A program made the position numbers and the translations under genes. From the NCBI GenBank assembly GCA_017512405.1, contig JAFWGJ010000148.1, positions 1-38,951 on the forward strand: a stretch of DNA of 38,951 nt. The letters are read 5' to 3'. How positions within the stretch are numbered: position 1 is the stretch's first letter; each line of letters starts with the position of its first letter. The notes beneath the pieces are model-generated. The model saw only the letters and a list, made by a program, of their open reading frames with translations. It was not told where the DNA came from and did not search any database. Source of the DNA: a bacterium (GTDB lineage: Bacteria > Cyanobacteriota > Vampirovibrionia > Gastranaerophilales > Gastranaerophilaceae). This document shows, one piece after another, positions 22,260-30,286 of the stretch.

Positions 22260-22697
22260 ATGAAAGATATATCAGGAACAGGGTTATCAATTATTGTTAA
22301 AGCATCTAACACATTTCCGCAAGGGATTTTATGCACATCTTTTCCGGATGATACAGACCCGTTAGACTTTCCCGAAGTTACAATAACCGAATACGGTATG
22401 GGGTTAAACGGCGACTTAATCACCTGGACAAGCCCTCAACCTTTACCGTTTAGCTTGTCTTTAATTCCTGGAACGGAAGAAGAAATTGCAATGGCATTTC
22501 TTTTTGAAGCTAACCGTGTAGCAAAAGGAAAGAAAAGTGCAAAAGATGAAATTACAATAGTTGTAAATTACCCTGACGGCACAATTAAAACTTTAAGACC
22601 CGGTCGAATCGTATCAGGTCAAACAGGCAAAGGCATTGCTTCGGGCGGAAGAACAAAAACTCCAACCTATGGCTTTGTTTTTGAAAATAAGGTATAG
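22260..22697 (+). CDS. Tail tube protein (DUF3277)
   Basis: The 145-residue protein matches DUF3277 tube proteins: DISGTGLSIIVKASNTFPQGILCTSFPDDTDPLDFPEVTITEYGMGLNGDLITWTSPQPLPFSLSLIPGTEEE and VVNYPDGTIKTLRPGRIVSG. It is directly downstream of the sheath gene. It forms the inner tube through which DNA passes. It is followed by the first copy of the repeated RNA element. Confidence 0.92.
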   Translation: MKDISGTGLSIIVKASNTFPQGILCTSFPDDTDPLDFPEVTITEYGMGLNGDLITWTSPQPLPFSLSLIPGTEEEIAMAFLFEANRVAKGKKSAKDEITIVVNYPDGTIKTLRPGRIVSGQTGKGIASGGRTKTPTYGFVFENKV

Positions 22698-22700
22698 ACA

Positions 22701-22810
22701 GCCGCAAGCCGAAGCGTTGAGCTTTGGCTGAGGTACTGCTCTTAGGCGACGTGCGAATTTTAATTCGCTCAGGAGCTTTACGCCTGTGAAATCAGAGATT
22801 TCAAACGGCG
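22701..22810 (+). promoter_or_regulatory. Repeated RNA element, copy 1
   Basis: GCCGCAA; stem P1 AGCCGAAGC (22707-22715) with GCTTTGGCT (22721-22729) around loop GTTGA; GAGGTAC (22730-22736); GCGACGT (22746-22752); stem P2 GCGAATT (22753-22759) with AATTCGC (22762-22768); CAGGAGC (22770-22776). This copy adds a third stem (TGAAATC/GATTTCA, 22787-22803) inside CGCC/GGCG. The chaperone gene starts 25 bases later. Confidence 0.8.
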
Positions 22811-22834
22811 GTTACGCAATGAAAGGACTTTTTT

Positions 22835-23269
22835 ATGTTAATAGACCCAAAAGAAATCACGATTGACTATGAGGGCGAGGAGTTAAAATTTAATATAGGA
22901 AAATTCCCCGCCACCGTAGGACGTGAAATTATAACAAAATATCCTGTTGCAAATATGCCAAAAATTGGCGATTATGCAGCAAGCGAAGAAACAATGCTAA
23001 AATTAATGAGCTATGTTGAGCGTGTCTATCCGGATAGAGTTCAACCGCTCATTAACAAAGCATTGGTTGATAACCACATCCCAAGTTGGGAAGTTTTAGC
23101 AAGAATTGAAGTAGAAACAATAAATTATAATTGTACTTTTTTCAGGAATGGCAAGGCCTTAGATTTCTTGAAGAAATCGATGTCCCTTGCCGAACCGAAG
23201 ATTATAGAAATGTTGACGGCTTTATCGGGTCAATTATCGCAAGCGAAAAAGCAACCCTCCAAGAACTAA
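22835..23269 (+). CDS. Tail assembly chaperone (G-type)
   Basis: The 144-residue protein starts LIDPKEITIDYEGEELKFNIGKFPATVGREIITKYPVANMPKIGDYAASEETMLKLMSYV, a pattern known from the upstream chaperone of myovirus tail assembly. It lies between tube and tape-measure genes, as lambda G does. Its 3' end contains GAAAAAG, allowing a -1 shift into the next frame. It binds the tape measure protein during tail assembly. The SD AAAGGAC precedes the ATG. Confidence 0.87.
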   Translation: MLIDPKEITIDYEGEELKFNIGKFPATVGREIITKYPVANMPKIGDYAASEETMLKLMSYVERVYPDRVQPLINKALVDNHIPSWEVLARIEVETINYNCTFFRNGKALDFLKKSMSLAEPKIIEMLTALSGQLSQAKKQPSKN

Positions 23270-23382
23270 AAACAGTTTACAGTTTAGAAGATGCAATGAT
23301 TATTTGGGAATCTGATATTATTCCAAAATTCAATGAATACAAAATAAATGAATATTACGCAAAAAAGGTAAAAACTAAATGA
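22835..23382 (+). CDS. Frameshifted chaperone (GT-type fusion)
   Basis: At 23245-23251 the heptamer G-AAA-AAG is in the zero frame (AAA-AAG codons). A -1 slip leads into ATLQELKTVYSLEDAMIIWESDIIPKFNEYKINEYYAKKVKTK, ending at 23382, for about 182 residues in total. The -1 frame has no own start with an SD. Its stop overlaps the tape-measure ATG, as in lambda G/GT. The ratio of the two products is normally critical for tail assembly. The slip site is read from sequence; its use is inferred. Confidence 0.82.
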
Positions 23383-24740
23383 CATTATTAGATACGTTTA
23401 TAATGAGTTTTGGAACAGAGGGCTTGGGCGAAATCGCAAAAGAAATTACAGATACCGAGCAAAAAGTCGATGAACTTGAAAAAAAAGAAAAACAATTAAA
23501 CAAAACAATAGAAGAAGGTAAAGACGATACCACAAAAGCAAGAGTTGAACTTGCTAAAGTTAAAAAAGAATTATCGGAAACTACCGATAAATTAAACAAA
23601 GCTAAAAATTCAACGGGTGGAGTTTTACTGCAATTAAAAAACATTGCAGGAGTTGCGGCAAAAGTCGGAGCTTCTTTTATCGCTTTTAAAAAAGCTGTTG
23701 ATTTTTCTTCTGATTTCGCTGAACAAGCCTTAGAAATGGAAGAAGCTGCTAAAAAGGCAGGTTTAACCATTGATGAATTTCAAAAGAAAAATGGCAGATA
23801 TACAATATTTACAAAGGAAGATGTAAATAACGCTAAAATTTACGAACAAACTATGCGGGATATTCGCATGGGAACGGCTGCAATCGGAGCGAATTTAGCA
23901 CAATTACTATTGCCTGTTATGATTAATGTTGCTAAAGTCGTAAGAAACGTTGTTGATTTCTTTGTAGACCACGGAGCATTTATAAAAGCGGCAATTATAG
24001 GAATAGGAGCAGTATTAACGGCAATAGCCATTCCTTCAATAATTAAAATGGGTGTTGCTTTATGGACAGCTCTTGCTCCTGTTTTACCGATAATTTTAGC
24101 AGTAACCGCCGCTATTGTAGCATTTAGCTTAATAGCAGAAGATATTTATAAATGGATTCATGGCGAACCCTCGCTTGCCGAATTAATTTTTGGCGATTTT
24201 AAAACATTTGTAGAAAATTTTAAAAACGGTTTTCAGCAAATTAAAGATGCTTTTAAAGTTTCTTTTGCAGAAGGTTTAAAAACAATTTGGAACAATTTAT
24301 TAGATTTCTTTAAAAGCAGTTGGACAAATTTATGGAATAATATTATTTCAAAAATTCCGCTTGTTCAAAAAATGACTGCAAGTAAAACCCCCGATGGCTC
24401 TCACGCTTCGGGATTAGACTATGTACCTTTTGACGGTTACATAGCTGAACTTCATAAAGGCGAAAGAGTACAGACCGCTCGTGAAGCAAGCGACTGGCGG
24501 GCTAATCTTATGGCAGCAAAAAAAGCGGTTAATTTTACGGCAAATTATCCTCTAAATGCAATTCCAAACGGAGCGGTTTCAAACGCTTATAACAATTCAT
24601 CCAACGCAAATAACCAAAATATAAATATATCGGGAATAACAATAAACACGGCTGCAACAGATGCACAAGGAATCGCAAACGATTTAGCGGGGTATATTAA
24701 ACAAGCATTTATCAGCCTTGATGATGGCATGCTTGCATAA
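23379..24740 (+). CDS. Tape measure protein
   Basis: This 453-residue protein has an N-terminal coiled coil (15-75, ITDTEQKVDELEKKEKQLNKTIEE), a hydrophobic centre (about 150-235, with AAIIGIGAVLTAIAIPSIIKMGVALW and VLPIILAVTAAIVAFSLIAEDIYKWIHG) and a C-terminal DGSHASGLDYVPFDGYIAELHKGERVQTAREA motif that is common in tape measures. It is quite short for a tape measure, so a short contractile tail is expected. It overlaps the frameshifted chaperone stop. Confidence 0.9.
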   Translation: MTLLDTFIMSFGTEGLGEIAKEITDTEQKVDELEKKEKQLNKTIEEGKDDTTKARVELAKVKKELSETTDKLNKAKNSTGGVLLQLKNIAGVAAKVGASFIAFKKAVDFSSDFAEQALEMEEAAKKAGLTIDEFQKKNGRYTIFTKEDVNNAKIYEQTMRDIRMGTAAIGANLAQLLLPVMINVAKVVRNVVDFFVDHGAFIKAAIIGIGAVLTAIAIPSIIKMGVALWTALAPVLPIILAVTAAIVAFSLIAEDIYKWIHGEPSLAELIFGDFKTFVENFKNGFQQIKDAFKVSFAEGLKTIWNNLLDFFKSSWTNLWNNIISKIPLVQKMTASKTPDGSHASGLDYVPFDGYIAELHKGERVQTAREASDWRANLMAAKKAVNFTANYPLNAIPNGAVSNAYNNSSNANNQNINISGITINTAATDAQGIANDLAGYIKQAFISLDDGMLA

Positions 24741-24751
24741 ATAGGAAAAAT

Positions 24752-25324
24752 ATGTCAATTTTATCAACATTTACGAATATAGTTTTACATATTAAACAAA
24801 AATCCGATTTTAAAAATATTGCTATTTATGAGCAAAAAAATAATAACGAGGTTTTTCAAAATGTAAAATATTTGGACGGTTCTGTTTCGGACGATTTAAA
24901 GGTTATGGAACATCCTAAAGAAGATGGTGCTACAATAGTAGACCATGTTGTTGATGACCCGAAAACTGCCGTAATAAGATTAATTATAGCTGATGACGAT
25001 GTTGAAAGTTTAAACGAAATTCTAAATTATTATAAAGATAGAACACCGCTAACAATCAAAATTAAAAACGAAATCTATTCAAATTTTATAATTTCGGCTA
25101 AACCCCTAAAAGCAGATGTTGAACACTATGACAAAACCGTTTACGACTTATCTTTTAAAGAAGTTATGGTTGCAAAGACTGTATATGTCAAAATGAGCGT
25201 TCCACAGGTTAAAAATAAAACCAACGCAAGTAAGATAAAAACAGGACAAAAACAAGGTATAAAAACCAAAGCCAAACCCTCAATTTTAAGAACATGGACA
25301 AATAAAATCACGGGGCGTAAATAA
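24752..25324 (+). CDS. Dit-like baseplate/tail protein
   Basis: The 190-residue protein has a beta-rich N-terminal part: QNVKYLDGSVSDDLKVMEHPKEDGATIVDHVVDDPKTAVIRLIIADDD, then LNYYKDRTPLTIKIKNEIYSNFIISAKPLKADVEHYDKTVYDLSFKEVMVA. This matches the Dit-like N-terminal domain of myovirus baseplates, linking the tube end to the hub. The C-terminal 45 residues are Lys-rich and probably flexible. Confidence 0.8.
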   Translation: MSILSTFTNIVLHIKQKSDFKNIAIYEQKNNNEVFQNVKYLDGSVSDDLKVMEHPKEDGATIVDHVVDDPKTAVIRLIIADDDVESLNEILNYYKDRTPLTIKIKNEIYSNFIISAKPLKADVEHYDKTVYDLSFKEVMVAKTVYVKMSVPQVKNKTNASKIKTGQKQGIKTKAKPSILRTWTNKITGRK

Positions 25325-25647
25325 TGCAAATAGATTTCAATTTACAAAATATCCCAAATCAATCATTTACAGCCACAATTAACAATATTGATATGGAAAT
25401 CACTTTAAAACTTGCGGATGAAAACTATCCGCATTTGTTATTTGCAATAGAAACAAATAACGGTTACTTATGCCCATATATTCCGATATTCGCTAATCAG
25501 GGCTTATTACCATATAACTATATGATTCAGGAACTTGGCGGACAATTCTTTATTGAAACCGAGAACGACGAATACCCAGATTATACAAAATTCGGCGATA
25601 CGCAAAATTTAAGTTTTATAACAATAGACGAGCTAAACAATGGATAA
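25324..25647 (+). CDS. Baseplate plug protein (Pam3 gp18-like)
   Basis: The 107-residue protein reads SFTATINNIDMEITLKLADE, then LLFAIETNNGYLCPYIPIFANQGLLPYNYMIQELGGQFFIETENDEYPDYTKFGDTQNLSFI. This is the small plug domain family described from cyanophage Pam3 (Asn/Gly/Phe pattern with FGxTxxLxF near the end). It closes the tail tube lumen before contraction. It overlaps the next gene by eight bases. Confidence 0.8.
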   Translation: MQIDFNLQNIPNQSFTATINNIDMEITLKLADENYPHLLFAIETNNGYLCPYIPIFANQGLLPYNYMIQELGGQFFIETENDEYPDYTKFGDTQNLSFITIDELNNG

Positions 25648-26506
25648 ACGCATTTGTTATGTACAAATACAAACACCGTCGGGCGACAAAGAAATACATA
25701 ATATTTCAATGCGTGGAAGAATAACCCGCAAAATGTCAGAAACAGGCTCAACCGCAAAAATATCCATTGCAAACTTATCTCGTGATGATGTTGAATATTT
25801 AACAACTTATGTTAGCCCTTATGTGGACCAGTCCAAAAGAAAAAGAATAAATATTTTTGCAGGTTATGAATCAACGGGGGTTGCTCAAATATTCGGCGGT
25901 GATATATATTCGGCACTGCCTGATGGTATGCCCGATACTTGGTTAAATATTGAAGCTAAAACCGAGTATTTTAATCAGCAGAATATTATAACTTTTTCAA
26001 CCTCAAACACAAACACAAAAACTTTAGCCACGAGCGTTGCAAACCAATTAGGGGTTAATCTTGTTTGGCGGTCAAAAAGTCAAAAATTAATTGATGCTTT
26101 TAATTTTGCAGGTGCAAAGGCTAAATTATTATATAAATTAAATTTAGTTGATAATTTTAGAGCATTTATAGATAACGGCAATTTGTATATCGTTGATAAG
26201 GATGAAGAACCGCCAACCGATAACGAAAATCAAACCTCCGATAATTCTGCAACAAAGAAAAAGGGATATATAAAATATGTTACTCCTGATAGCGGTTTAA
26301 TCGGAATACCACAACCCGATGAATTTGGAGTTAAGGTCAAAGTTTTATTAGACCCTGCGGTTCAATTAGGGGATTGGTTCAAATTAGAAAGCAAACGTTT
26401 GCCTATTGTAAACGGTTTTTATCAGGTTTATGAAATGACATACGATTTTGCAACCCGAGAACCACAATATTATATTGAAATTTACGGTAAAAATAAAAGA
26501 ATATAA
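25640..26506 (+). CDS. Baseplate hub protein (gp44/gpD-like)
   Basis: The 288-residue protein shows a hub layout: an N-terminal beta barrel (SMRGRITRKMSETGSTAKISIANLSRDDVEYL, FAGYESTGVAQIFGGDI), then a lysin-like/beta domain and a C-terminal LLDPAVQLGDWFKLESKRLPIVNGFYQVYEMTYDFATREPQYYIEIYG. The order plug, hub, spike matches related myoviruses. A disordered Asp/Asn/Lys stretch (about 190-210) separates the domains. Copy 2 of the RNA element starts immediately after its stop. Confidence 0.82.
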   Translation: MDKRICYVQIQTPSGDKEIHNISMRGRITRKMSETGSTAKISIANLSRDDVEYLTTYVSPYVDQSKRKRINIFAGYESTGVAQIFGGDIYSALPDGMPDTWLNIEAKTEYFNQQNIITFSTSNTNTKTLATSVANQLGVNLVWRSKSQKLIDAFNFAGAKAKLLYKLNLVDNFRAFIDNGNLYIVDKDEEPPTDNENQTSDNSATKKKGYIKYVTPDSGLIGIPQPDEFGVKVKVLLDPAVQLGDWFKLESKRLPIVNGFYQVYEMTYDFATREPQYYIEIYGKNKRI

Positions 26507-26589
26507 AGTGCCGCAAAAACCAAAATGTTGAATTTTGGTTTTGAGGTACACATTTTAAGCGACGTAGAAATCTTTGATTTCACAGGAGC
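26507..26589 (+). promoter_or_regulatory. Repeated RNA element, copy 2
   Basis: AGTGCCGCAA directly follows the hub stop codon. P1 is a perfect 11-bp stem (26516-26526 with 26532-26542) around loop GTTGA. Then come GAGGTAC (26543-26549), GCGACGT (26559-26565), P2 GAAATC/GATTTC (26567-26572, 26576-26581) and CAGGAGC (26583-26589), which serves as SD for the spike gene at 26600. Confidence 0.8.
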
Positions 26590-26599
26590 AAGTTTAACT

Positions 26600-27259
26600 A
26601 TGGAAATAACTAAAACCATACCGTCTAATAACCCTGCGGATTGCAACACGCTTGACGGGTTAAATAATACTTTAATCGATAAAATTTTTTTGAATTTAAA
26701 AAAAGTATGCCCCGGAATTGTCCAAAGCTACAATCGTCAAACAAATAGAGCTGTTATAAAACCTGCTATAACAGGAATTGCAAGTCAGGGGCAAAAAGTT
26801 CCAAAAGATAATCTTGTTAATATCCCCGTTTTAAATTTATCGGGGGGCGGAATTGTTTTATCATTTCCGATTAAACAAGGCGATACGGGGTGGTTAATCG
26901 CAGCAGACCGCAATATTTCAATATTCAAACAAAATTTAGTTGAATCCGCTCCGAATGATTATAGAAAACATTGTTTTGAAGATAGTTTTTTTATTCCCGA
27001 TAAAATTAACGACTTAAATATTTTAGATAATGATAGTTTTATAATCCAAACCATTGACGGCACTACATCAATCAGTTTAAAGGAAAATTTATTAACTCTT
27101 ATCGCAACTGCGATAAATTTAACAGGAGCAACCACAATAACAGGCGATACATCCGTTGTTGGGAATTTAACCGTTTCAACCGGAGCGACGGGAGTATTTA
27201 CAAGTGCAGACAGTAAAACCATCACCGTAACAAACGGTATTATAACAGGAATTAATTAA
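26600..27259 (+). CDS. Baseplate spike protein (gp138/gpV-like)
   Basis: The start is MEITKTIPSNNPADC (26600), because AGGAG of the RNA element precedes it; the longer frame from 26525 only reads through that element. The protein is 219 residues. The N-terminal OB-like Gp138 domain contains VQSYNRQTNRAVIKPAITG, NIPVLNLSGGGIVLSFPIKQGDTGWLIAADRNISIF and RKHCFEDSFFIPD. The Thr/Gly-rich C-terminal repeats (TGATTITGDTSVVGNLTVSTGATGVF) form the beta-helical spike that pierces the outer membrane. Confidence 0.87.
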   Translation: MEITKTIPSNNPADCNTLDGLNNTLIDKIFLNLKKVCPGIVQSYNRQTNRAVIKPAITGIASQGQKVPKDNLVNIPVLNLSGGGIVLSFPIKQGDTGWLIAADRNISIFKQNLVESAPNDYRKHCFEDSFFIPDKINDLNILDNDSFIIQTIDGTTSISLKENLLTLIATAINLTGATTITGDTSVVGNLTVSTGATGVFTSADSKTITVTNGIITGIN

Positions 27260-27603
27260 TGCAAACAATTTCAATAAATCAAAACAACGATATTTACGTT
27301 GATACAAGCGGAAATATTGCAATGGGCAAAGACAAATACGCTTTATCGGACATTTGCAAAAACAAAGTTTTAACCACATTAGGAGAACCCGAATATAATC
27401 AGACGGCGGGCATACCATATTTTGAAACGGTATTTTGCGACACTCCGAAAATCGATTTATTTCAAACCGCAGTAATAGAAACAATAGAACAAACCGATAA
27501 TGTTAATCGGGTTACAAACTTTGATTATGACCAAAATAACGGGGTCTTATCGTATTCATTAATAATTAATACAGATTTTGGGGACATTCAATTAAATGGC
27601 TAG
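27259..27603 (+). CDS. Baseplate wedge protein (gp25/W-like)
   Basis: The 114-residue protein has DIYVDTSGNIAMGKDKYALSDICKNKVLTTLGEPEYNQTAGIPYFETVF, then LFQTAVIETIEQTDNVNRVTNFDYDQNNGVLSYSLIINTDFGDIQL. This is the gp25-like wedge fold common to contractile injection systems. It initiates sheath assembly with baseplate J. The short overlap with the J gene is typical. Confidence 0.85.
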   Translation: MQTISINQNNDIYVDTSGNIAMGKDKYALSDICKNKVLTTLGEPEYNQTAGIPYFETVFCDTPKIDLFQTAVIETIEQTDNVNRVTNFDYDQNNGVLSYSLIINTDFGDIQLNG

Positions 27604-28786
27604 TAATTACATATTTTTAGATAATAACGGCATAGTAGTAGCTGACACAGCCGATATTAAAGAAACTGTACAAAACGAATTTTTGGCGGCTTTAGGTTCG
27701 GATTTATCGCTTGAAGATTCAACACCGCAAGGAAGATTAATCGATATTGAAACAAATTGCAGAACGGCAGTCATTAATAATAATGTTGCTATTGCAAACA
27801 GTATCAATTTTAATTTAGCGTCAGGAATTACGCTCGATGCTTGGGGAGCAAATTTTGATTTAGAAAGAGACCCCGCAACAAGCTCGAGTGTTATTGCAAC
27901 CGTAACGGGAGTGGCAGGAACAGTAATATCATCAGGTTCAACTGCTCAAACTCAAAACGGCGATTTATTCTATGCTGAAAACAATATTACAATTCCCCAA
28001 TCGGGTAGTATTACAGCAACGTTTTTATCCGTTGAAAAAGGGGAAATCGCTTGTCCTGTTGGAAGTCTAACAAAAATTATAGATGGAACTTTAGGTTGGG
28101 AAACGATAACAAATTTAGCCCCTGCAACTTTAGGAACTTTACAACAATCGGATGCAAGCTATAAGCAAGAATTTTATGATAACGGCTTATTTAACGGAAT
28201 GTCATTAATTGAAGATTATGATAACGCTTTAATGCGTGTGGATAACGTAATTTCAGCAAGAGTAATCGAAAACGGACTATCTACAAGTAAAGTTGTTGAT
28301 AATATAACCTTATTACCTCATAGCGTTTATGCTTGTGTAGATGGTGGAAACAATACGGATGTTGCAAATGCTTTATTTTATCGAAAATCAGCAGGTTCAA
28401 ACTGGACAGGATTAACAGGGCAAACAGTAACTGTTGATGTAGTTGAGCCAACTTATGGCGATATATATCAGGTTATATTTAACCGCCCAAATGAAATTCA
28501 AATTTATGCAAGCGTAACCGCAAATTCAGGAACGGCAACATCTTCCGATTTATCGGACGATATTAAAACTGCAATTACAAAATACATAAATATTCATAAA
28601 ATCGGGGAAGATGTTTCGATTTTACAACTGGCACAAGCAATAAATTCAGCGATACCGGGAATTGCTCTTAATTCTATCGCAATTGGCACATCCTCCGGTT
28701 CGCAATCTGCCGCAAATATAACAATACATGTAAATCAAGTTGCAAAAGTTTCAGCAGAAAATATAACGGTAACAATAAATGCCTAA
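27596..28786 (+). CDS. Baseplate J-like wedge protein
   Basis: The 396-residue protein has the Baseplate_J pattern: EFLAALGSDLSLEDSTPQGRLIDIETNCRTAVINNNVAIANSINFNLASGITLDAWGANFDLERDPATSS at the N-terminus, then ATVTGVAGTVISSGSTAQTQNGDLFYAENNITIPQSG, and VDNVISARVIENGLS in the middle. It builds the wedge ring together with the gp25-like and DUF2612 proteins. There are no odd features. Confidence 0.9.
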   Translation: MASNYIFLDNNGIVVADTADIKETVQNEFLAALGSDLSLEDSTPQGRLIDIETNCRTAVINNNVAIANSINFNLASGITLDAWGANFDLERDPATSSSVIATVTGVAGTVISSGSTAQTQNGDLFYAENNITIPQSGSITATFLSVEKGEIACPVGSLTKIIDGTLGWETITNLAPATLGTLQQSDASYKQEFYDNGLFNGMSLIEDYDNALMRVDNVISARVIENGLSTSKVVDNITLLPHSVYACVDGGNNTDVANALFYRKSAGSNWTGLTGQTVTVDVVEPTYGDIYQVIFNRPNEIQIYASVTANSGTATSSDLSDDIKTAITKYINIHKIGEDVSILQLAQAINSAIPGIALNSIAIGTSSGSQSAANITIHVNQVAKVSAENITVTINA

Positions 28787-29375
28787 TACAATTTTAAATT
28801 ATGACCCAAGCGTTGATTTAACTAAACATATTTTTTGGCAGTATAATAACGCTCCTGCAATTAATAGTTTAATTAACACTAAACAAAATTGGTTTAATAA
28901 AAACCAAACCGAATTTTGGAACGACTGGGTTAAAAATGTTTTAAATATTACTACCGCAAATGATTACGGTTTATCAATTTGGGGAGCATTGCTTCAAGTG
29001 CCAAGAGTTTACAACGTTGAAGGTGATGATATAACACTTACGACTAATCAATATAGAACAGTACTTTTAGCAAGACTAAAACTGTTACATACCAGAGCAA
29101 CCGTACCCGAAATAAATAAGTTGTTGAAATTTTTATTCGGACAATACGGAAAAGCCTATGTTGTTGATAATTTTGATATGACAATAACTTATAGATTTAA
29201 TTTTAATTTATCTGCTCTGCAATTAGCAGTTTTACAAAATGTAACACTATTACCCCGTCCGGCAGGAGTTCAAGCGGTTATTGTTGCAAGCGATAATGTT
29301 GTATTCGGCTTTAACGGTTCAAGTGCTCAGCCTTTTGATAACGCACCATTTGCAACTTATATCCATAACGTATAA
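28779..29375 (+). CDS. DUF2612 baseplate protein (gpI-like)
   Basis: The 198-residue protein contains QNWFNKNQTEFWNDWVKNVLNITTANDYGLSIWGALLQVPRVYN, YRTVLLARLKLLHTRATVPEINKLLKFLFGQYGKAYVVDNFDMTITYRFNFNLSALQLAVLQNVTLLPRPAGVQA and FGFNGSSAQPFDNAPFA. These features define DUF2612, the gpI-like wedge piece between J and the tail fibre. Copy 3 of the RNA element follows its stop. Confidence 0.87.
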   Translation: MPNTILNYDPSVDLTKHIFWQYNNAPAINSLINTKQNWFNKNQTEFWNDWVKNVLNITTANDYGLSIWGALLQVPRVYNVEGDDITLTTNQYRTVLLARLKLLHTRATVPEINKLLKFLFGQYGKAYVVDNFDMTITYRFNFNLSALQLAVLQNVTLLPRPAGVQAVIVASDNVVFGFNGSSAQPFDNAPFATYIHNV

Positions 29376-29380
29376 CAGAT

Positions 29381-29435
29381 AGTGCCGCAAAAACCGAAGC
29401 GTTGAGCTTTGATTTTGAGGTACACATATTAGGAG
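29381..29435 (+). promoter_or_regulatory. Repeated RNA element, copy 3 (short form)
   Basis: AGTGCCGCAA, P1 (29390-29400 with 29406-29416) around loop GTTGA, then GAGGTACACAT and TTAGGAG. The GCGACGT-P2-CAGGAG part of copies 1 and 2 is absent, as if deleted between short AGG repeats. The AGGAG serves as SD for the fibre gene at 29444. Confidence 0.8.
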
Positions 29436-29443
29436 TTTTTTAA

Positions 29444-30286
29444 ATGCAAAGCACAGAATTAGTCGCACCTTTAGCGATTCAGACACCTATTGCAATAAAC
29501 GGTGATAAAAATATCCCAAAACAAAACGCACAAGGAACAGATACATCCTCAATTAGTTTAGGGTTTTTACCTATAACGTCAGAACCATTGGACGACGGCG
29601 GCATTGCACCCGAAAGAATTGATTTTAACGGGATGTTTTATTTATCAACGGACCAGAGAACATATTTACAAAACGGAGGTTATATAACCTATAACGTAGA
29701 AGTTGCAACTGCAATAGGCGGATATCCGCAGGGGGCAATTTTAAATTATCTTGATTCAAGCGGTAATTTTAGCCAAGTTCAATCTTTAATTGATAACAAT
29801 CAATATAATTTTGTAACAACTCCAAGTTATATTAACAACACTTATTGGAAATTTGTTTCAGGGAAACCAACCGTAATATCAGTTTTAGAACAGGTTTACC
29901 CTATCGGAGCAATTTTTATAGGAACAACTTCATCCTGCCCTATGGCTGCGATATTTGGAACTTGGGAATTAGTTGCAGAAGATAGATGTTTACAAGGTTC
30001 TAGTGAAAATCACCAACCTAATACTACAATACCGGCAAGTTTACCAAATGTAAAAGGTGGTTGGTATTTAGGAAATGGTGGTTATTATGATGACCATAAA
30101 TCTACCGCTTCAGGAGCAATAAAAGTTTCAAAAGGAGGTTATGGTAATAACGGTGCTAGATTATCAGGACAAGGTTCAAAATTTACTCTGGATGTTTCTG
30201 CAAATTTAAACTCAATTTATTCTGATAATACAACCACGGTTCAACCCTCGGCTTATGTAGTTAATGTTTGGAGGAGAACAGCATAG
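29444..30286 (+). CDS. Tail fibre/collar protein
   Basis: The 280-residue protein ends with a short-tail-fibre type knob: VYPIGAIFIGTTSSCPMAAIFGTWELVAEDRCLQGSS, then a Gly/Asn-rich loop region and PSAYVVNVWRRTA. The VYPxGxIYxT...GTWExxxxxRxLxG and final xxVxxWxRTA are typical of phage fibre ends that contact the receptor. The N-terminal part (about 1-60) presumably docks to the baseplate. It is likely a host-recognition protein. Confidence 0.82.
   Translation: MQSTELVAPLAIQTPIAINGDKNIPKQNAQGTDTSSISLGFLPITSEPLDDGGIAPERIDFNGMFYLSTDQRTYLQNGGYITYNVEVATAIGGYPQGAILNYLDSSGNFSQVQSLIDNNQYNFVTTPSYINNTYWKFVSGKPTVISVLEQVYPIGAIFIGTTSSCPMAAIFGTWELVAEDRCLQGSSENHQPNTTIPASLPNVKGGWYLGNGGYYDDHKSTASGAIKVSKGGYGNNGARLSGQGSKFTLDVSANLNSIYSDNTTTVQPSAYVVNVWRRTA

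Follow-up and report, generated by a model that had tools for sequence, protein, structure and literature searches.

Hairpin elements between prophage tail genes are probably insertions of modular, mobile REP/BOX-like repeats found in one bacterial family

Introduction

The described repeats closest to those reported here include the REPs, which carry GTAG or CGTC tags (Di Nocera et al., 2013, PMC3733652), and the BOX elements of Streptococcus pneumoniae (Croucher et al., 2011, PMC3049150). The CGTC REPs, which include RPE-4 and RPE-6, are recognized by an unpaired CGTC (or TGTC/CCTC) tag, a stem of 8-9 bp that opens with two A-T pairs, a loop of 4-5 nt and a CCA tail (PMC3733652). REP-like repeats that lack a transposase of their own are still puzzling, and no such enzyme is known for the CGTC type (PMC3733652). 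BOX elements are transcribed and can affect neighboring genes (PMC3049150).

Here we analyzed a stretch of 38,951 nt (the window; G000:C85:1-38951) from a bacterial assembly of 1.93 Mb. The window contains a contractile-tail prophage with genes for terminase, portal, protease, sheath, tail tube, baseplate hub, wedge, fiber and integrase. Three related hairpins lie between its tail genes, and a sequence-only reading of this DNA had taken them for a covarying RNA element under selection for its structure. In our analysis, the three sites are probably insertions of modular REP/BOX-like small mobile palindromes that inhabit both the phages and the chromosomes of a single bacterial family.

Results

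Hairpins in the tail operon

The three copies of the hairpin, here called module A, were confirmed at the places between tail genes and with the sequences that had been reported (Table 1). The strict pattern GCCGCAA-N6-14-GTTGA-N6-14-GAGGTAC matched three times in the window and never in 100 shuffles, with no match outside the window in the 1.93 Mb host assembly. A module A covariance model run on the window with filters off returned the three known copies and nothing else above noise. When 228 kb of the host assembly were sampled, no repeat like the window copies was seen, so these do not merely represent a repeat that is common in the host. In agreement with the sequence-only reading, which knew of no named motif with this consensus, no Rfam 15 family matched module A by gathering score or E-value.

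Table 1. Repeat modules and adjacent genes in the window
Feature	Position	Strand	Description
Tail gene 5' of copy 1	22260..22697	+	phrog_2420, labelled tail fiber
Module A, copy 1	22698..22739	+	9-bp stem, GTTGA loop, outer helix CAG-CC/GG-UA-CUG; 54.7 bits
Module B, copy 1	22746..22776	+	GCGACGT-GCGAAT/ATTCGC-CAGGAGC
Module C, copy 1	22781..22811	-	CCGCCGTTT-GAAATC/GATTTC-ACAGGCG, minus-strand reading
Baseplate hub gene 5' of copy 2	25640..26506	+	phrog_196
Module A, copy 2	26507..26552	+	perfect 11-bp stem; 70.9 bits
Module B, copy 2	26559..26589	+	GCGACGT-AGAAATC/GATTTCA-CAGGAGC
Gene 3' of copy 2	26600..27259	+	Pfam xxxxx_N phage protein; "spike" in the sequence-only reading
Module A, copy 3	29381..29426	+	5 nt 3' of TAA stop; 69.1 bits
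Tail fiber gene 3' of copy 3	29444..30286	+	

Copies 1 and 2 begin immediately past the stop codons of the tail-tube (TAG) and baseplate-hub (TAA) genes. All three copies share GCCGCA, the GTTGA loop and GAGGTAC, and their stems differ yet pair, the stem of copy 3 having one C.A mismatch and one G.U. Compared with their own shuffles, they folded with z-scores of -3.0 (copy 1), -5.0 (copy 2) and -4.1 (copy 3). The inner stem carries the pentaloop at its tip and borders on an internal loop (GCA/GA). Around this stem, an outer helix is formed in which GUG-CC pairs with GG-(UA)-CAC, the UA being bulged. The outer helix is paired in all five sequences used as a starting set and covaries, with CAG/CUG in copy 1 and GUG/CAC in the other starting sequences, and with CUG/CAG in the copies of genome G205. 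An unbulged 5-bp outer helix was rejected, being broken in copy 1 whereas the bulged version pairs throughout. The pentaloop is GNNGA in all copies but one (GTTGA, GATGA, GAGGA, GGTGA).

From its placement 3' of the sheath gene, the gene preceding copy 1 likely encodes the tail tube; its counterpart in one annotated relative is a tail tube protein. Just 5' of the tape-measure gene (22835-23382), the overlapping frames 22835-23269 and 23131-23382 resemble a tail-chaperone frameshift pair. The longest ORF of the gene that follows copy 2 (26525-27259) begins at an ATG inside the hairpin, in the loop region (A-ATG-TTGA), and automatic annotation may extend this gene into the repeat. A start at 26600, with AGGAG upstream, is likelier than one at 26525. 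That AGGAG belongs to module B and is likely the Shine-Dalgarno (SD) sequence of the gene. The element had been credited with the SD of the next gene at both copies 2 and 3; this holds for copy 2, through the CAGGAGC of module B, but not for copy 3, where AGGAG lies 3' of the conserved element. At copy 1, an SD-like AAAGGAC is located 3' of module C.

Covariation and spread of module A

Among 20 distinct copies of module A, 96.4% of pair cells were paired, both partners had changed in 13 of 16 pairs and the covariation score was 0.57 (shuffles, 0.19; slid controls, at most 0.18), in an alignment that was fitted to the covariance model and is hence biased towards structure. The first five sequences, aligned with MAFFT without the model, gave 97.4% pairing and eight double-changed pairs. 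The claim that stems differ between copies and remain paired was therefore upheld, compensatory change being far above the shuffled and slid controls. On the motif strand, G.T outnumbered A.C by 16 to 7, and G.T recurred at one position in 9 of the 20 copies. Such an excess fits a single-stranded form of that strand, either RNA or DNA.

A covariance-model search, which the sequence-only reading had proposed, detected module A in further phages and in some chromosomes of the host's family. At E ≤ 1e-5, module A was present in 13 of 383 genomes of this family, a few of the matches being partial or weak and the counts being somewhat inflated by kinship among repeat copies. A phylum-wide draw of 386 genomes from 142 genera gave matches in the host's family only. 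Genome G231 had seven copies, of which three formed a tandem array, and G205 had four. Several copies sit in phage regions, adjoining terminase, portal, capsid or baseplate genes; others appear chromosomal, such as those of G231 near SpoIIE-like and ferredoxin-type genes (C1) and near a carboxypeptidase-like gene (C19). In viral contigs, the only real matches to the pattern GTGCCGCAA...GAGGTACAC were L010 and L030, both of which carry module A, and two more patterns added L312 and its duplicate L318 and nothing else. A loose hairpin pattern gave at least 115 matches in genome contigs, with no convincing paired hairpin among the matches listed, as chance predicts, and a DNA similarity search with copy 2 found none in named phages. 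In genome G128 (L225-L230), about 25 dispersed copies of the hairpin AGTATTAAAGTGGAAATGTTGAATTTTCACTTTAATACG, also with a GTTGA loop, are joined to another repeated palindrome; they are a further chromosomal relative or a look-alike.

Orientation and orthologous sites

Module A is in sense orientation to its neighboring genes in the window, L030, L218 and L255, and antisense in L219 (two copies), L223, L256, L010 and one copy of L221. Neither the constant orientation nor the conserved neighbors of a cis-regulatory RNA were found. Three copies (L221, L223, L256), all antisense, lie in frame within small ORFs and encode the same antisense peptide, VPRNESS..FLRQS; those of L223 and L256 represent one shared ancestral insertion. 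Rickettsia palindromic elements (RPEs) can also sit in frame inside ORFs. They differ from module A in sequence, host and tag, and here only these three antisense copies in small ORFs were seen.

The syntenic phage L166, with a tail-tube protein 78% identical, lacks module A at all three window sites, and L165 (83%) likewise lacks copy 1. At the site of copy 2, the hub and spike genes of L166 overlap by 4 nt (ATGA), while 93 bp separate stop from start in the window. Occupied and empty orthologous sites were thus observed in relatives that are only about 70% identical in DNA, too diverged for reading junctions, so that gain and loss are indistinguishable site by site. No insertion with exact junctions or target duplication was caught among the relatives compared. 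At the site of copy 1, L165 (3073-3155) and L166 (8432-8545) have other hairpins of their own (CTTTCTTTACCCCTC...GAGGGGTGAGAAAG and CTTTCTTTCCCC...GGGGTGGAAAG), this gap therefore being occupied by different palindromes in different phages.

With respect to selection on RNA structure, the sequence-only reading was right that pairing has been kept, but a dedicated RNA element tied to tail-gene starts does not agree with copies that are dispersed, of mixed orientation and missing in L166. A dispersed repeat unrelated to gene starts, the outcome it had itself set against its proposal, is what we observed, in either orientation and near capsid, terminase-region and chromosomal genes.

Modules B and C

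The second stem noted in copies 1 and 2 (GCGACGT...CAGGAGC) is present and paired, but it is a separate repeat, module B, which is dispersed independently of module A. In the host's family, 96 of 239 genomes contained its pattern, with up to 18 copies per genome, against only a handful of matches for a reversed control in the 239 genomes. Of 54 distinct inner sequences, 37 had a perfectly paired stem of 5 bp or longer, compared with 5% of shuffles, and many of the remaining inserts had longer, interrupted stems. The stems are nearly perfectly Watson-Crick, with very few G.T pairs and no G.T excess. Based on mechanical ORF calls, the genes on either side of module B were in tandem in 25 gaps, convergent in 13 and divergent in 5, and module B was sense in 20 and antisense in 5 of the tandem pairs (p = 0.004). 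The module A G.T excess and this sense bias allow for a role at the RNA level.

In 6 of 91 module B copies (one doubtful), an ORF with an ATG start opens 3-14 nt 3' of CAGGAGC, and none does so at the opposite end. To judge from this spacing, CAGGAGC can serve as a portable SD sequence when it falls a few nucleotides before a start codon, as at copy 2 and in four or five further copies. Module B was also found within a ribosomal-protein operon, upstream of rpsM. In L258 / L237 (G335), a long series of hairpin modules, B among them, lies between an rpmJ-like frame and rpsM inside this operon, and another module B lies between rpsM and rpsK. In the B-rich genera (G194, G161, G162, G278; L400-L438), module B is usually 3' of a different hairpin, flanked by sequences such as GTAAGCCGGTGC...GCACTACGA, and pairs of that hairpin and module B, of about 100 nt, are tandemly repeated.

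Among the window copies, a third, inverted hairpin (module C) was found only at copy 1. Its flanks recur with other stems in L312 and L218; in L312 it lies on the same strand as a module A, the opposite relative orientation to copy 1. The combinations seen were A, A+B, A+B+inverted C and A+C. The A+B composite of L030 has a spacing identical to that of copy 2, and the window and L030 were the only real matches to the A+B junction pattern in viral contigs. Copy 3 lacks module B and has only TATTAGGAG between the hairpin and the fiber gene; it could be an A+B composite that lost the hairpin of B.

Search for a mobilizing enzyme

No Y1 transposase was found in G000, G231, G205, G146 or G184, and one was found in G128, the genomes being drafts in which the absence of a gene is weak evidence. 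Of the 18 genomes with at least five module B copies, 3 had a Y1 match (72 of 239 overall) and 8 had a reverse transcriptase (100 of 239 overall). Both enzymes were rejected as the mover, neither tracking copy number.

Discussion

Origin and maintenance of the repeats

The repeats are dispersed and modular, occur in either orientation, are absent from orthologous sites and covary. We infer that they are mobile and that stem pairing has been kept because the folded single strand is recognized. The probable identification of the window sites as mobile repeats draws on the presence of module A in 13 of 383 genomes of one family and, across the phylum, in that family only, the tandem array of G231, the mixed orientation, the in-ORF copies and the empty sites of L166, together with the dispersal and paired stems of module B, the recurrence of module C in the other orientation and an intergenic placement like that of REPs (PMC3733652). 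Against it stand the want of an insertion with exact junctions and of a mover, the sense bias of module B and the G.T excess of module A.

Every module is a hairpin whose flanks are fixed while its stem varies, and in module A the pentaloop is fixed as well and an outer helix is present. The modules are found singly or in combination (A, A+B, A+B+inverted C), for the most part in short gaps directly 3' of stop codons. The recognized form would be a folded single strand, DNA during mobilization or RNA after transcription, with sequence-specific contacts made through the flanks and loop. Once inserted, a module could take on a side role, as the CAGGAGC of module B may do as a ribosome-binding site a few nucleotides 5' of the start codon at copy 2. 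A fuller proposal, which we hold only tentatively and regard as rather doubtful, is that phage-vectored hairpins spread as folded single-stranded nucleic acid by machinery other than a Y1 transposase or a reverse transcriptase, with stems free to vary, flanks, loop and outer helix recognized, and one module carrying a ribosome-binding site to the next gene.

The same covariation could reflect a dedicated cis-acting RNA regulator of phage tail genes, namely a leader, translational coupler or antitermination site. The strong signal in module A, the likely SD contributed by copy 2 and the position of the window copies, all sense and directly between co-transcribed genes, speak for such a regulator, which we nevertheless consider quite unlikely given that a syntenic phage does without all three sites, that antisense copies are found in five other contigs (L010 and L219 among them) and that the neighboring genes are functionally unrelated, with some copies inside ORFs. 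An RNA function of the REP type could also be the main force keeping the stems, if the spread were DNA-borne and copies persisted since transcripts are stabilized, processed or ended there. The 20:5 sense bias of module B, the preference for G.T over A.C in module A and a location 3' of genes, in convergent more than divergent gaps, agree with this explanation; it remains unlikely, as module B stems show no G.T excess, about half of the phage contexts of module A are antisense and the hairpins have no T-run on their 3' side. Finally, pairing could be a mutational by-product, with template switching perfecting imperfect palindromes whose structure is unselected. The nearly perfect Watson-Crick stems of module B are what this process would yield, but it leaves unexplained the fixed flanks and pentaloop, the covarying outer helix, the spread between genomes and the recurrent G.T at one module A position, and is highly improbable. 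More generally, strong covariation among copies within one genome is alone no proof of a dedicated RNA regulator.

Comparison with known repeats

Like the modules described here, REPs are short hairpins placed mostly between tandem or convergent genes, 3' of coding regions and sometimes intragenic; their stems contain G.T pairs and differ between subfamilies by complementary changes (PMC3733652). They differ in that the stems here are nearly free to vary while the flanks and the loop of module A are fixed, and in the fixed A+B composites and the copies in phage late operons. GTAG is absent from module A, whose complement has only CCTC. In module B, the conserved block is GCGACGT, with GCGAC preceding GT, and the tetranucleotide at the foot is GT[AG]G in 70% of the 91 copies (GTAG 46, GTGG 18; the rest GTAA, GTTT and GTGC), not in >90% as in GTAG REPs; the Y1 tyrosine transposase (RAYT) associated with GTAG REPs was not found to accompany the modules. 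The complement of module A resembles CGTC REPs in having CCTC at its foot and a loop of 5 nt, and departs from them in a tag region that lies within the outer helix, a first pair that is mostly G-C and the lack of a CCA tail; in module B, GACG is on the wrong side.

BOX elements are likewise composites of hairpin modules (boxA, boxB and boxC) dispersed between genes, with a fixed A-Bn-C order, terminal inverted repeats and an IS that has been proposed to move them (PMC3049150). Their sequences differ from those of our modules, which occur alone, joined or inverted, and for which neither terminal inverted repeats, a fixed order nor a mover was found. Hairpins derived from IS200/IS605 and REPtrons with Y1 (TnpA) are recognized as single strands through short guide sequences at the foot (PMC6006769), and recognition of this type would explain a structure that is kept while the stem sequence is free. 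Unlike in those systems, no Y1 was found in the host of the window or in four of the five other element-bearing genomes, and none is enriched where module B is common.

As dispersed short palindromes that are mostly extragenic and lie in tandem or convergent gaps, modules A, B and C agree with REP-like repeats in the broad sense. We file them among REP/BOX-like repeats; an earlier description of these modules may exist, our literature search having been limited. To the REP-like repeats that lack a dedicated transposase, the family adds a case with near-free stems set against a fixed loop, flanks and outer helix, modules combined in either orientation, carriage by phages and an example of a dispersed repeat that would supply an SD sequence to the adjacent gene.
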